Shown here in pieces: positions 3,017 to 7,334 of a stretch of 34,404 nucleotides of DNA (positions within the stretch are counted from its first letter, which is position 1; each line of letters starts with the position of its first letter). The notes beneath the pieces are model-generated. The model worked only from the letters and a program-made list of their open reading frames with translations. It had not been told where the DNA came from and searched no databases. A program made the position numbers and the translations under genes. The stretch is from an uncultured Acidobacteriia bacterium (lineage in GTDB: Bacteria > Acidobacteriota > Terriglobia > Bryobacterales > Bryobacteraceae), in the NCBI GenBank assembly GCA_903925015.1, contig CAIYDY010000229.1, forward strand, positions 1 through 34,404, in the 5' to 3' direction.

Positions 3017-3841
3017 TCAGACCCTCGAAAGTTCCGCGTAGACCTTGGCGCGCAGGTTGGCGACGCCAGCCGTGTAGCGGTGGTCGGACACGGCGAATGC
3101 CACGGCATCCTCCATCCAATCGTGCCAGACGCCATCGGGATCGTGGGATGCGGCCGTAAGCGTGTAGTCTCCGGGACAGAGGTTGCAGGGAAACCGGAAT
3201 GTGACGCGGACCAGATCTCCGGTTGCCACGGGGCCGACCAGGACATGTTCCAACTCCGTGTTGGTTCCGTAAACATTCAAGCCAATCCGGGTTCGGAGCA
3301 TGATTCCCACCACCGGATCGTCAATTTCGGCCTGAAACCGGACAGCAACCCTGACAGCGATCTCTTCGCCCGAACGAAACACGGTGGATGGCTCTCCGTT
3401 TTCTCCCAGTAGTTCGATGGCTTCCAGTGTGGCGCGACCGTCGCCGTCGCGCAATGTGGGCGAAAGAGCTGATTCGAGTCCGAGTCCGGCGAGCCTCAAC
3501 TGCTTGGCGCAGTGGCGACGGTAGATCGGCAGGATTTCCGCCGGGTCGCCCCGAGCAACCAAATTGCCTCCGCGCAACCACCAGACTTCGTCGGCGCACT
3601 GCTCCATCAGCACCTCGTCATGGGTTACCAGTACGAAAGTTGCTCCTGCGCGCCTCCGTCCCACCATTGCGGAAACCGCGCGGGCTTTTCCCACTGCATC
3701 AGCGTCCGTGAACGGATGCAGAAGAAGCTGCGCATCGGGGCCCATTCTGGGGGTACGGGACAGCGATGGGCCGCCCTCCTCGATCACGGCGATGATACTT
3801 CCGTCCGGGGCCGTCAAGACCGGCGAGTTGAATTCAATCAT
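3017..3841 (-). CDS. Wzt-like protein with vestigial ABC ATPase domain and C-terminal Wzt domain
   Basis: A 274-residue protein. The C-terminal part (about 120-262) matches the Wzt_C beta-sandwich that in O-antigen ABC transporters binds the polysaccharide end; segments such as GLNVYGTNTELEHV and FPCNLCPGDYTLTAASHD are typical. The N-terminal 110 residues look like the remnant of an ABC ATPase. The first strand and the position of the P-loop are present (GSIIAVIEEGGPSLSR) but the Gly-Lys-Ser/Thr of Walker A is gone. The Q-loop, LSGGQ signature and Walker B are deleted. The H-loop strand VLVTHDEVLMEQCADEVWWL and the domain end GDPAEILPIYRR survive. It cannot hydrolyse ATP in the usual way. No Wzm permease is adjacent. 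The start follows the TonB receptor stop by 24 bases, with TAATAT 11 bases before the ATG and no Shine-Dalgarno. Confidence 0.75.
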   Translation of the reverse strand: MIEFNSPVLTAPDGSIIAVIEEGGPSLSRTPRMGPDAQLLLHPFTDADAVGKARAVSAMVGRRRAGATFVLVTHDEVLMEQCADEVWWLRGGNLVARGDPAEILPIYRRHCAKQLRLAGLGLESALSPTLRDGDGRATLEAIELLGENGEPSTVFRSGEEIAVRVAVRFQAEIDDPVVGIMLRTRIGLNVYGTNTELEHVLVGPVATGDLVRVTFRFPCNLCPGDYTLTAASHDPDGVWHDWMEDAVAFAVSDHRYTAGVANLRAKVYAELSRV

Positions 3842-3865: not shown

Positions 3866-6800
3866 CTAGAACCTGAATCGCAGTCCCAGTTGCATTCGGC
3901 GCGCCTCGAAGGCCGACGTGAAGCCAAGCGGATCGGTCGGCTTCCGGTCATCCCGACCGGTCACGTTGAACGGACCTGCGAGGGCTCCCACGGTATTGTT
4001 CACGCTCTGGTAGTTGAGTTTGTTGAACAAATTGAATGCTTCGAACATCAAGTCGAGGTGCCGCTTCTCACCCACCCGGATGCTGCGTTGGAAACGGCTG
4101 TCGAAGGTCCAGAAATTTGGCCCCATACCTGTGTTGCGCCCGGCGTATGCAGGACGATCGGTCGTGTTGTGCCGGTCGCTGTTCAAGTCCGTGCCGCCAA
4201 TCAGGAGGTTGAAGGGCTGGCCGCTGTGCGCCTGGAAGATTGGCGAAACCAACCAATCCCGCAGGAGGACGTTCGTTGTCGACGGGGTCTGCAGCATGGC
4301 GTAGGCCACGAACTTGTGGCGCTCGTCGAAAGAGGAAGCGGCCCGGTCGCAGCGGCGGCAGAACTGGTTGTTGGGTTCGAAGTCGCTGTTGTAGTCGGTT
4401 GTTTCATCAGTGGCGTGGCTCCAGGTGTAGTTGGCGTGGAGCTGCACGCTGCGGCCGATGCGCTTGCTGCCTTCCAACATCAGACCTCCATAGAACGAGT
4501 TCGAGTTGGATTCGTAGACATTGCTCTGGTAGATCAGCGGGTTGACGAAATAGCCTGCGGGATGGGTAGCGTCAGCCGCGTAGTTTTGGGTGCCGATGTT
4601 TTTGTCGAACGGGGCGCTGGAGAGCAGGTTATTGTCGTAGGCGTCCGTCAAATGGGCTCCGCGCACGAAGACGCCGTTGGCGGAAGCGGTGAAGCCGCTG
4701 CCGAATTCGCGTTGGATGCCCAGGCTCGCTTGCTGCGTTTGAGGATTCCGGTAGTTCGGAGAGGCGCTGAAGACGACCGAAAGTGGCGGCAGCGGGCCGG
4801 TTTGGCTGATGTTGATGCCGAACTGGGTGAGGTCCGCGGGGGTGATCGGACGCTGCGGCGTGGGTACGCCGATCACGCCCTTCGCCCGCAGCGTGGTGAA
4901 GATATTGGCAGCGCTCTGCGCTCCAGCCGTCTGGATGGTGGTGAGCACCTGTGCAATCGGGCGCGAACCGTCCGACCGGATGCCGAGGGCATAGACGCTG
5001 TAGTCGATCTGGAAGTCAATCGTGGCGTGGTAGATGCCGTACCCGCCGCGGATGACAGTTTTGGCATCCGGGCTCCAGGCAAAGCCGAAGCGCGGTGCGA
5101 TCTCCTTGTGGTCGGTCGGCAGGGGGGCTCTTCGATTGTCCACCTCGTACCGCAGGCCCGCGTTCAGCGTCAAGGTCTTGGTCGCGCGCCACTCATCTTG
5201 AACATAACCGGCGAACAAGGGGTAGGTGGCGGTCACGATTCCGTTCCCGAACCCCTGCTGGTAACTTTGGGCCAGTCCGAGGTTGAAAGCCTGGAGGGCA
5301 TTGATTGTTGTCGATGCCAACGCCGCGTTGACAAGGCCGCCCGGAAGGGCTCCAAACGTAAACCGACCGCTGAAAAACGTGGCCGAATCACTGTGTTCGG
5401 ACCGGATCAACGCGTAGCCGCCCGTCTTGATCGAATGCCGGCCGAGGTTGAAGCTGATGTTGTCGGAAAACTCGGTCCGGCGCGCGATGCTTTCGCTGGG
5501 GAGGAAGCGGTCGCGGTTGAAATTGCCGAATCCGGCGATCTCGAGCGCTGGGCCGAACTTGTCGTTTGTTCCGGTGAGTTGGTCGTAGTAGTCGAACTGT
5601 GCGTGCGCCTCGTTGATGACGCGCGGCGAGAACGAGTGGATCCAGGACAGCGACAATGCGCTGTCGAACGTGTCTTGGATGAAGCCCCGCGAGATTCCGG
5701 TCAGGGCGCTGACGTTGGGGTTCGTGTCATAGAACTTGCTCGTATTGGACCGCATCGAAAATTGGTCGTTGGCGCTGAACTGGTGGTCGAGACGCACAAG
5801 GCCCTGGTGCTGGTCGGTCTGGAACGGGAAGATGCCGCTATTGGCCTGGAACATTTGCTGCACCGAGGCGGGTGTCGACAGCACTGCGGTCAATTGCGCG
5901 GATGCGGCGGCGGGCAACTGGGCCAGAATGGCCTTCTGGGCAGAAGTGGGTCCGAAAACGGAAAGATCGGTCAGGATCGGAACGGCTGTAGACTCGCGCC
6001 GCCGTAGCTGCTCGTAGTCCAGGAAAAAGAATGTCTTGTCCTTGGCTATGGGGCCGCCAATGGTGGCTCCGAACTGCTGGCGCGATGAATCCGGTTTCAC
6101 GCGTGTCACTTTGTTGTCGGCGCTCAGAACGATGTTGAACGGATTGGTTGCGTCCAGACCCTGATTGCGGAAGAATCCGAATGCGCTGCCGTGGAGTTCG
6201 TTGGTGCCGCTCTTGGTGACAATATTCACAACGCCGCCCCGCGAGCCGCCGTACTCGGCGCTGTAGTTGGACCGGTTCACCTGGAATTCGCGAACAGCCT
6301 CCTGTCCAACGGTTGCGCGGACGCCGCCGCCGCCATCATTGGATTCGCCGCCGTCCACGTTGATCGTATTCCCGCGGCCGTTGCTGCCGTAGAACGAGAG
6401 GCCGGAATCGGGCGTCTGTTTAACGCGGTAAGTGTTGGAGTCGGCATGGGCCTTGGAGTCGGATACGCCCGGTGCAAGAAGGGCGAAGCTCAGGTAGTCG
6501 CGGCGGTCGATCGGCAGTTCGGCAATCGCCTTTTGCTCGATCACGTTGGATTGCTGGGTGCGGGTTGTCTCTATCGGGGGAGCGTCGGACACAATTTCGA
6601 CGGTCGAATTTCCGGCGGCCACCTGGAGCTTGAAATCGACACTGGCTGCTGCGCCTACCGTCAGTTCCACGCCGCGCTGGACCATGGCGTTGAAGCCGAC
6701 ATGTTCGGCACGGATGTCATAAGTGCCAGGCGGGAGCAGGTCCAACCGGTAGGCACCGTCCGGTCCCGTGGTTGCCTTGCGGGAAAGCCCGGTTGCCGGA

Positions 6801-6934
6801 TTGGTCGCCGTGACGGGGGCTGATCCCACCACCGCGTCAGTCTGGTCCGTGACCGTGCCGGAAAGTGTGGCGGTGCTGGTGGATTGGCCGTGGGCGAACG
6901 ATGCCGCGACGAGGACGAGCAGTGTCAGTTTCAT
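3866..6934 (-). CDS. TonB-dependent receptor, Oar-like, with carboxypeptidase-regulatory domain
   Basis: A 1022-residue outer-membrane receptor. The chosen start (6932-6934) gives a clean signal peptide, MKLTLLVLVAASFAHGQ, and has CGGGAA upstream; the frame extends further upstream, but that extension lacks coding character. Residues about 20-105 form a carboxypeptidase-regulatory-like beta-sandwich (SGTVTDQTDAVVGSAPVTAT, PPGTYDIRAEHVGF). The plug follows (IETTRTQQSNVIEQKAIAEL, VVNIVTKSGTNELHGSAF), then a large beta-barrel ending in the classic terminal aromatic strand RRMQLGLRFRF. Such receptors are expanded in Acidobacteriota and are assumed to import oligosaccharides or other large ligands using TonB energy. 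The ligand cannot be deduced. The gene reads away from the ATP synthase operon and toward the Wzt-like gene. Confidence 0.93.
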   Translation of the reverse strand: MKLTLLVLVAASFAHGQSTSTATLSGTVTDQTDAVVGSAPVTATNPATGLSRKATTGPDGAYRLDLLPPGTYDIRAEHVGFNAMVQRGVELTVGAAASVDFKLQVAAGNSTVEIVSDAPPIETTRTQQSNVIEQKAIAELPIDRRDYLSFALLAPGVSDSKAHADSNTYRVKQTPDSGLSFYGSNGRGNTINVDGGESNDGGGGVRATVGQEAVREFQVNRSNYSAEYGGSRGGVVNIVTKSGTNELHGSAFGFFRNQGLDATNPFNIVLSADNKVTRVKPDSSRQQFGATIGGPIAKDKTFFFLDYEQLRRRESTAVPILTDLSVFGPTSAQKAILAQLPAAASAQLTAVLSTPASVQQMFQANSGIFPFQTDQHQGLVRLDHQFSANDQFSMRSNTSKFYDTNPNVSALTGISRGFIQDTFDSALSLSWIHSFSPRVINEAHAQFDYYDQLTGTNDKFGPALEIAGFGNFNRDRFLPSESIARRTEFSDNISFNLGRHSIKTGGYALIRSEHSDSATFFSGRFTFGALPGGLVNAALASTTINALQAFNLGLAQSYQQGFGNGIVTATYPLFAGYVQDEWRATKTLTLNAGLRYEVDNRRAPLPTDHKEIAPRFGFAWSPDAKTVIRGGYGIYHATIDFQIDYSVYALGIRSDGSRPIAQVLTTIQTAGAQSAANIFTTLRAKGVIGVPTPQRPITPADLTQFGINISQTGPLPPLSVVFSASPNYRNPQTQQASLGIQREFGSGFTASANGVFVRGAHLTDAYDNNLLSSAPFDKNIGTQNYAADATHPAGYFVNPLIYQSNVYESNSNSFYGGLMLEGSKRIGRSVQLHANYTWSHATDETTDYNSDFEPNNQFCRRCDRAASSFDERHKFVAYAMLQTPSTTNVLLRDWLVSPIFQAHSGQPFNLLIGGTDLNSDRHNTTDRPAYAGRNTGMGPNFWTFDSRFQRSIRVGEKRHLDLMFEAFNLFNKLNYQSVNNTVGALAGPFNVTGRDDRKPTDPLGFTSAFEARRMQLGLRFRF

Positions 6935-7040
6935 GAAATTCCCGTTAAATTGCCGGTTCCTAGTTTCTGCCGAGGAGGGTAGCAATGTCAACCGTGTTGG
7001 CCCGGCTGGGTGTCCAGTCCGGTACAGGGTAGAATTGACC

Positions 7041-7334
7041 TTGGCTTTCAAACGCAGTTCCGGAGCCCGTGATTCCGAGGCCCAGGCCACGAGTGCTTTT
7101 GGAAAGTACATGTCCTACTCAATGTTGCTGCCAGTGGCAACATGCGTGGGCTACGCCATGGGGTACGGGCTCGACAAGTTGTTGGGAACGGGGTGGATCC
7201 GATTCGTTTTCCTCGGACTTGGCGCGACCGGGGGGTTCATGTCCCTGGTGAGGGGCTTGGCACCACGGGTTGCCAGGGTGCCTCCGGTGTGTGTTAAATC
7301 CTTGGATCCAAAGACTGTGGAGCATCCGCTATGA
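7041..7334 (+). CDS. atpZ: AtpZ/AtpI-type small membrane protein of the F0 operon
   Basis: A 97-residue protein if translation starts at the TTG at 7041. The in-frame ATG at 7110 would delete the conserved FGKYMSYSM entry into the first membrane helix. Two hydrophobic helices (SMLLPVATCVGYAMGYGLD and WIRFVFLGLGATGGFMSLV) separated by the DKLLGTG turn are typical of AtpZ, a probable Mg2+/Ca2+-related accessory protein of ATP synthase. It overlaps the next gene by four bases (ATGA) and heads the atp operon. TAGAAT lies five bases before the TTG and no Shine-Dalgarno is visible, so the messenger may be leaderless. Start choice is uncertain; family assignment is fairly safe. Confidence 0.75.
   Translation: MAFKRSSGARDSEAQATSAFGKYMSYSMLLPVATCVGYAMGYGLDKLLGTGWIRFVFLGLGATGGFMSLVRGLAPRVARVPPVCVKSLDPKTVEHPL

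Follow-up and report, generated by a model that had tools for sequence, protein, structure and literature searches.

In the ABC transporter-dependent pathway of O-antigen synthesis, as set out in PMC11231755, a terminator caps the chain, and the carbohydrate-binding domain (CBD) of the transporter admits only capped chains. In the O9a system of Escherichia coli and the O3 system of Klebsiella pneumoniae, a capping methyltransferase (WbdD) is paired with a cap-reading CBD carried by the transporter ATPase, and the terminators contain a coiled-coil ruler (PMC3482155; PMC11231755). The WzmWzt O-antigen exporter of Aquifex aeolicus is represented by the structures 8dku and 7k2t and, for the CBD of Wzt, by 8dky. 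According to PMC9445017, the Wzt CBDs are dimers docking on only one nucleotide-binding domain (NBD). The CBD dimer and a single NBD enclose the O antigen, and the NBD helices at this interface are the hinge helix (residues 226–240), the H-loop helix (201–207), and helix 174–189. The same paper names Asn313, His350, and the carbonyl of Ile299 as holding the 3-O-methyl-mannose cap, the methyl group of which contacts Leu300, Thr346, Ala348, and Trp362.

The gene analyzed here is located in the window, i.e., the whole stretch of 34,404 nucleotides that constitutes contig CAIYDY010000229.1 (C229) of an uncultured Bryobacteraceae genome (GCA_903925015.1, G000). Its product resembles A. aeolicus Wzt in the NBD-then-CBD order, the predicted fold of the CBD, the Asn/Thr/Ala/His/Trp set of cap residues, and the H-loop and hinge helices. 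Unlike that protein, which is a full ATPase coupled to Wzm, the window protein has lost the P-loop and Q-loop, the helical subdomain, the signature, and the catalytic Glu, and its contig carries no Wzm; in contrast to the O9a and O3 systems, the CBD is attached here to a motorless protein.

Architecture of the motorless Wzt-like protein

The following features were assigned to the gene and its product:

3017–3841, minus strand: motorless Wzt-like ('mini-Wzt') gene, 274 aa plus stop, intact ORF
3500–3841, minus strand: NBD remnant, residues 1–114; predicted ABC core fold without the ATP site and helical subdomain (AlphaFold, VIA-align)
3737–3796, minus strand: former place of the P-loop, residues 16–35; GxxxxGK[ST] absent
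3707–3730, minus strand: degenerate Walker B QLLLHPFT, residues 38–45; catalytic Glu missing
3620–3622, minus strand: H-loop His74 in VTHD context
3596–3616, minus strand: H-loop helix, residues 76–82, equivalent to A. aeolicus Wzt 201–207, the helix on which the CBD dimer docks
3578–3592, minus strand: DEVWW motif, residues 84–88, specific to the short form
3485–3544, minus strand: hinge helix, residues 100–119, equivalent to A. aeolicus Wzt 226–240, which contacts the O antigen and CBD
3056–3454, minus strand: Wzt_C carbohydrate-binding domain, residues 130–262 (Pfam PF14524; structural match to 8dky)
3299–3304, minus strand: I180-M181, equivalent to cap-site I299-L300 by alignment to Aquifex Wzt; variable in the family
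3260–3262, minus strand: N194, equivalent to Asn313 (cap ring oxygen) by alignment to Aquifex Wzt
3143–3157, minus strand: T229, A231, and H233, equivalent to Thr346, Ala348, and His350 (methyl pocket and C2 hydroxyl) by alignment
3116–3118, minus strand: W242, equivalent to Trp362 (stacking on the methyl group) by alignment to Aquifex Wzt

In the Pfam scan, Wzt_C (PF14524) was identified at residues 130–262 with 121.4 bits against a cut-off of 30.4, while ABC_tran gave no match to the window protein at E ≤ 10. In NCBIfam, the window protein matched only generic ABC families, with scores far short of the cut-offs, and no dedicated family. The remnant is composed of the first core strands (residues 2–22), a short link, the degenerate Walker B, VTHD, DEVWW, and the final helix; in the AlphaFold model, strand 16–22 joins the Walker B strand 37–41 without an intervening helix. 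The place of the P-loop is occupied by IEEGGPSLSR, the Walker B reads LLLHPF, without any D or E, and the segment containing the Q-loop, helical subdomain, and signature is missing. Inspection of the sequence thus gave the same list of losses (Walker A Lys, Q-loop, signature, and Walker B) as the initial annotation, which had also correctly described an intact frame retaining the H-loop and the whole Wzt domain (a 274-aa ORF with H74 in VTHD and PF14524 at residues 130–262). Its estimate of an ATPase half of about 110 residues was close as well: the remnant has about 114 residues, which VIA-align superposed on complete ABC NBDs about 240 residues long.

The lost half of an ABC ATPase comprises the ATP-binding and permease-coupling elements; the helical subdomain and the Q-loop, through which the ATPase is usually coupled to Wzm, are both absent from the window protein. 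Since the P-loop, signature, and catalytic Glu have been lost, the protein should not hydrolyze ATP in the usual ABC manner.

Structure prediction, proposed in the initial annotation, yielded a confident fold, with a mean AlphaFold pLDDT of 94.2 over the whole model (64 alignment rows); for L051, a short form retaining the P-loop, it was 92.5 (44 rows). Alignment A1 contained 64 of the 65 rows then listed, L085 being omitted. Among the 50 matches listed, residues 1–114 aligned by VIA-align with ABC NBDs at Z-scores of 11.8–13.2 and rmsd of 2.0–2.9 over 108–117 residues, and the model appears to have the ABC NBD core fold across the whole N-terminal part. The CBD matched the Aquifex Wzt CBD with bound 3-O-methyl-mannose (8dky) with a Z-score of 17.6 and rmsd of 1.6 over 126 aligned residues (VIA-align). 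It also shared its fold with the O-12 Wzt CBD (5hno; Z 16.2, rmsd 2.0), which differs in recognizing a Kdo-capped chain and has 18% identity. The orientation of the domains in the model was unlike that in Aquifex Wzt, the whole-chain rmsd in VIA-align being 9–15.

Distribution and conservation of the short form

A search for homologues, as proposed in the initial annotation, found the same internal deletion throughout the lineage and not in one genome alone. Within the window's genus, the short form was present over most of its length in 17 of 19 genomes, the exceptions being G009 (an 83% complete genome) and G012 (a piece at a contig edge). In a profile search of the order, 148 of the 257 genomes scored higher than 290 bits; they were listed by hand, not individually inspected, and include neither G039 (283.7 bits, full-length Wzt) nor the G012 and G024 fragments. 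By hand count, 121 of the 148 genomes match the profile from position 16 or earlier, which leaves no space for a helical domain. Even shorter open frames, of 249 aa, were observed in genus g70 (G180:C59, G181:C141, and G182:C21); their match starts at profile position 97–98, so that little of the N-terminal part may be left. Scanning of public genomes yielded 75 loci, mostly from Bryobacterales or unclassified Acidobacteria; among them, L101–L104, L107, and L108 have longer Wzt-like frames, and L100 is truncated at its contig end.

A total of 72 distinct short forms of 271–338 aa were aligned. This set comprises the window protein and 71 distinct sequences from 91 loci after the removal of identical copies, and is without L029, L065, and L096 (cut by contig ends), L094 and L095 (broken frame), and L002–L004, L033, L100–L104, L107, and L108 (full-length or outside the clade). 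L094 and L095 are copies of the short gene with an interrupted frame, for which assembly error and real decay are both possible. In a tree built by a quick method, a branch with an SH-aLRT of 98 separated all 72 short forms from 37 full-length Wzts, which were chosen by P-loop, SSGM, and length and come mostly from the same genus or family. A recent deletion or assembly error, which the initial annotation had named as fatal to its proposal, was rejected: the closest relatives share the same short form (G017, 96% identity; G018, 80%), and the family constitutes a single clade.

The catalytic Glu was present in 37 of 37 full-length sequences vs. none of the 72 short forms, and no signature of the LSGG/SSGM type was detected in any of the 72. 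The median number of residues before the G66 column was 104 in the short forms vs. 192 in the full-length rows; the switch His was present in 60/72 and 37/37, respectively. A full GxxxxGK[ST] was retained by 12 short forms and a GK without Ser/Thr by 10, while 50 had no GK; at least five changes of this trait are required on the tree. The distribution is compatible with one ancient loss of the helical half, while P-loop decay seems to have come later and to have occurred repeatedly, with the window's genus as an extreme case. The retained P-loops suggest that nucleotides may be bound in one subclade. E85 was found in all 72 short forms, and W87 and W88 in 68 each; the full-length Wzts have Arg at the E85 column (37 of 37) and mostly Ile, Phe, or Leu at the columns of W87 and W88.

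In the alignment, N194, H233, I180, M181, T229, A231, and W242 of the window protein occupy the positions of Asn313, His350, Ile299, Leu300, Thr346, Ala348, and Trp362 of Aquifex Wzt. The N/T/A/H/W set was identical in 72 of 72 short forms and, after the addition of a second set of 30 loci (28 of them repeats), in 74 of 74 distinct sequences; the short forms had been located by the motif GTNT[EQ]L, which includes N194, no candidate lacking the motif. The Ile299 position is I, M, or L and the Leu300 position M or L among the short forms. Only one of the 37 full-length Wzts has the N/T/A/H/W set, 27 have it with Q for H, and 28 have Gln at the cap-site His position; one row is gapped at four of the five columns. 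The full-length Wzt encoded on C231 of the window genome (L117:13529-14764) likewise belongs to the same CBD family, with 31% identity over residues 32–267, and differs from the short form in its complete ATPase and the Gln at the His position. Judged from sequence, the short protein probably keeps a methyl-cap-like pocket of the Aquifex type. The non-transport, glycan-binding role suggested in the initial annotation is compatible with the invariance of the five cap-site residues in the short forms checked; the role itself is predicted.

The three interface helices of A. aeolicus Wzt (PMC9445017) have equivalents at residues 100–119, 76–82, and 49–64 of the window protein, all three being present in the model; the Aquifex chain numbering in the alignment is that of the paper plus 1. 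The best-conserved part of the remnant is residues 64–107 (H-loop helix, DEVWW, and start of the hinge helix), with a mean majority fraction of 0.66 against 0.52–0.54 elsewhere: 0.54 in segment 36–63, which contains helix 49–64, 0.52 in segment 108–129, which contains the end of the hinge helix, and 0.52–0.53 in the ATP-site part. Conservation therefore backs a kept interface in part, since residues 64–107 stand out, while helix 49–64 and the end of the hinge helix do not. If the NBD half formed the other wall of the sugar pocket, this would explain why the CBD-facing half, and not the ATP-binding one, has been retained. The sugar contact of the NBD, Tyr233, was not retained, the position being Arg in 51/72 short forms and Gln in 10/72.

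Selection for the remnant, supposed in the initial annotation from its lack of stops, was supported by the single clade of all 72 aligned sequences and by dN/dS values below 1 in both halves, the measure proposed there for the remnant. Values were calculated for the 25 most alike pairs and for the window vs. L035; the pairs are non-independent. For the window vs. L035, dN/dS was 0.13 in the remnant (dS 1.7, near saturation) and 0.05 in the CBD. For the window vs. L034, it was 0.41 in the remnant, from only 11 differences, and 0.07 in the CBD. The other 24 pairs listed gave 0.04–0.32 and 0.04–0.19, respectively. The weaker constraint on the remnant in the pair with L034 and the broken copies L094 and L095 are what a decaying pseudogene or a recent in-frame deletion could account for. 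Such an origin is nevertheless very hard to reconcile with one clade holding every aligned sequence, matches above 290 bits in more than half of the genomes of the order, an invariant cap-site set, dN/dS well below 1 in the other pairs, and a confidently predicted fold.

Genomic partners and context

Among 69 loci, a class I SAM methyltransferase was encoded near the short gene in 31, a right-handed beta-helix protein in 37, both in 29, and at least one of them in 39; in each case the neighboring methyltransferase and beta-helix genes were on the strand opposite to the short gene. Neighbor genes were predicted with a simple GC-frame gene caller and annotated by Pfam scans of single members; alignment A3 contained 17 of the 31 neighbor methyltransferases and alignment A4 contained 19 of the 37 neighbor beta-helix proteins.

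Across the 257 genomes, the methyltransferase was found in 141 of 148 with the short gene vs. 17 of 109 without it, and the beta-helix protein in 131 of 148 vs. 12 of 109. All three genes were present in 126 genomes and none in 89; the short form occurred without the methyltransferase in 7 genomes and without the beta-helix protein in 17. Because the methyltransferase family was picked as a neighbor of the gene, its co-occurrence does not amount to an unbiased screen, and physical linkage together with missing contigs inflates the association. At the genus level, 55 genera had the short gene with the methyltransferase, none the short gene alone, 4 the methyltransferase alone, and 25 neither. 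A genus-stratified Mantel–Haenszel test, which ignores the species tree, incomplete genomes, and physical linkage, gave p values of 6.5e-6 for the methyltransferase and 1.0e-7 for the beta-helix protein. G049 has all three genes and its congeners G048 and G050 none; in genera g25, g38, and g79, the genes were present or absent together, the genomes without them being 91–99% complete and G095 (g38) lacking only the beta-helix gene. In the window's genus, the short gene and the methyltransferase gene were on different contigs in all 15 genomes with both.

The methyltransferase L071:3405-4715 has a SAM methyltransferase domain (Methyltransf_11, E 1e-20). In the Pfam scan of this one member, no kinase family was detected at E ≤ 0.1, unlike in WbdD, which also has a kinase. 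The C-terminal region of one member scored just over the cut-off of the TIGR03437 Solibacter domain. The nearest solved relatives of the methyltransferase are phosphoethanolamine and other small-molecule methyltransferases, a weak similarity (best E 1.8e-8) that leaves a sugar substrate putative. The beta-helix protein was assigned to PF13229 in one member, and its profile gave no match to PDB sequences at E ≤ 0.001. By hydropathy and by eye, most members have an N-terminal hydrophobic segment, and some a lipobox-like one.

In seven genomes of the window's genus, the methyltransferase and a shorter beta-helix stretch were encoded in long open frames of 795–876 aa, while in others, such as G002, G004, G011, and G014, they were encoded by adjoining frames. 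In the one long frame that was read (L121:7510-9915 of G006:C25, 801 aa), a hydrophobic stretch lies between the methyltransferase and the beta-helix, and the frame has an internal Met. This frame may be either a fusion or two in-frame adjoining genes; if it codes for one protein, its order would fit an enzyme in the cytosol, a segment in the membrane, and a beta-helix that is exported.

As the initial annotation had noted, no Wzm permease is encoded near the short gene: PF01061 had no match on C229, i.e., in the whole window, and seven matches on other contigs of the genome. The contigs encoding the three other Wzt_C proteins of this genome (C231, C76, and C213) also have none, which makes this a weak test here. 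The Wzt_C proteins of C76 and C213, and the 100% identical G017 copy of that of C231, are among the full-length rows with P-loop and SSGM. No conserved Wzm or glycosyltransferase was found among the neighbor families examined.

The window neighbors (PspA/IM30, a 136-aa protein, and a TonB/Oar-type receptor) are found also in the closest relative, L034, and do not represent a conserved context; hence, they were not used in assigning a function. The receptor gene (3866–7111, minus strand) ends 24 bases upstream of the start codon of the short gene, on the same strand, and the two could be co-transcribed; TonB/Oar-type receptors were encoded near 14 of the 69 loci. A CP-ATPgrasp neighbor (Pfam of one member) was found at 22 of the 69. 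Scanning for promoters and terminators yielded no signal exceeding that of shuffled sequences. Several single observations were also made. In L127:8181-10170 (G047:C1), a gene resembling, by eye, that of a daunorubicin-type ABC ATPase lies 4 bases after the short gene on the same strand. The full-length Wzt gene of the genus directly follows a phage-like cluster in L117 (G000:C231:1-15860) and L123 (G006:C8:102500-122000). The cluster in L117 encodes terminase, portal, major head, tail, and central tail fibre J proteins (PHROGs), and the genes and order in L123 are similar by eye, as in a gene-transfer agent or domesticated prophage. In L146:3833-5230 (G000:C82), an ABC2_membrane (Wzm-like) match lies inside a longer frame with glycosyltransferase/LPS-like genes beside it, possibly a second export locus.

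Possible functions of the short form

Three points thus go beyond the initial annotation: the short form is a lineage-wide family, the CBD-facing helices are retained, and the gene has methyltransferase and beta-helix genes as genomic partners. The invariant cap site, together with the co-occurrence and adjacency of the methyltransferase gene, leads us to favor, with the chances about evenly balanced, the reading that the short protein is a soluble, ATPase-dead paralogue of Wzt serving as a cytosolic reader of the methylated non-reducing end of a glycan and acting with the methyltransferase before export; we infer the binding, the partners, and the glycan. The substrate of the partner SAM methyltransferase would be a lipid-linked surface glycan, methylated at its growing end. 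This cap would be bound by the short protein's CBD through site residues assigned from the alignment and model, the H-loop and hinge helices of the retained NBD half possibly forming the other wall of the pocket. The reader would then hold the capped chain or pass it to a Wzm/Wzt exporter encoded elsewhere; alternatively, it might act as a checkpoint by returning the chain to the termination complex. Once exported, the glycan would be modified or bound by the beta-helix protein. In its fullest form, for which we see somewhat less than even chances, this would be an undescribed three-part, envelope-spanning capping module of Bryobacterales, in which the cytosolic methyltransferase writes the methyl cap, the motorless Wzt reads it, and the glycan, after its export, is acted on by a beta-helix protein that is itself exported; the ABC half would then persist solely to wall the substrate pocket.

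The short protein might instead supply its CBD in trans, pairing through it with a full Wzt or serving a Wzt without a CBD, and so widen the cargo to a methyl-capped glycan. A full-Wzt match was found in 61 of 61 relatives, some of the matches covering the NBD only (open frames of about 250 aa, the length of an NBD). The docking of Wzt CBD dimers on one NBD only (PMC9445017) is in keeping with such pairing, and a cap site unlike that of most full-length Wzts (Q for H) would suit a second cargo. However, Wzt occurs with or without the short gene, and its ubiquity means that co-occurrence speaks neither for nor against a partnership, including the one that the initial annotation had offered as an alternative, a regulatory partner of a full Wzt elsewhere; moreover, the neighbor families examined show no linkage to Wzm or Wzt, and the short protein is devoid of the parts normally coupling to Wzm. 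We consider supply in trans possible but unlikely. More doubtful is a role outside transport, in which the protein would be a targeting or regulatory subunit of the methyltransferase, presenting the glycan end to it or sensing its product. The methyltransferase is the strongest genomic partner (141 of 148 genomes), and no transporter gene was found among the conserved neighbors examined; against a subunit speak the separate location of the two genes in the window's genus and in three f3 genomes and the fact that no fusion with the short protein was noticed, an incidental observation made without a dedicated search.

The association of the genes could also be a matter of shared descent only, the short gene being a core gene of the lineage and its product binding an unrelated ligand. 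Presence does largely follow clades, and Fisher tests ignore phylogeny, but the joint presence and absence within genera g25, g38, and g79 and the repeated adjacency of the partners make this improbable.

In literature searches, mostly outside subscription journals, we failed to find an earlier description of such a motorless Wzt. On this basis, and as it has no NCBIfam family of its own, the family is apparently undescribed; annotation pipelines may label its members ABC transporter ATP-binding proteins. If the proposed role is true, evolution has separated two functions of Wzt, recognition and motor, that are united in the compared systems, and the split would reveal the part of the NBD used for recognizing cargo. 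It would also provide a testable handle on the capping of surface glycans in Acidobacteria, an abundant phylum of soil.
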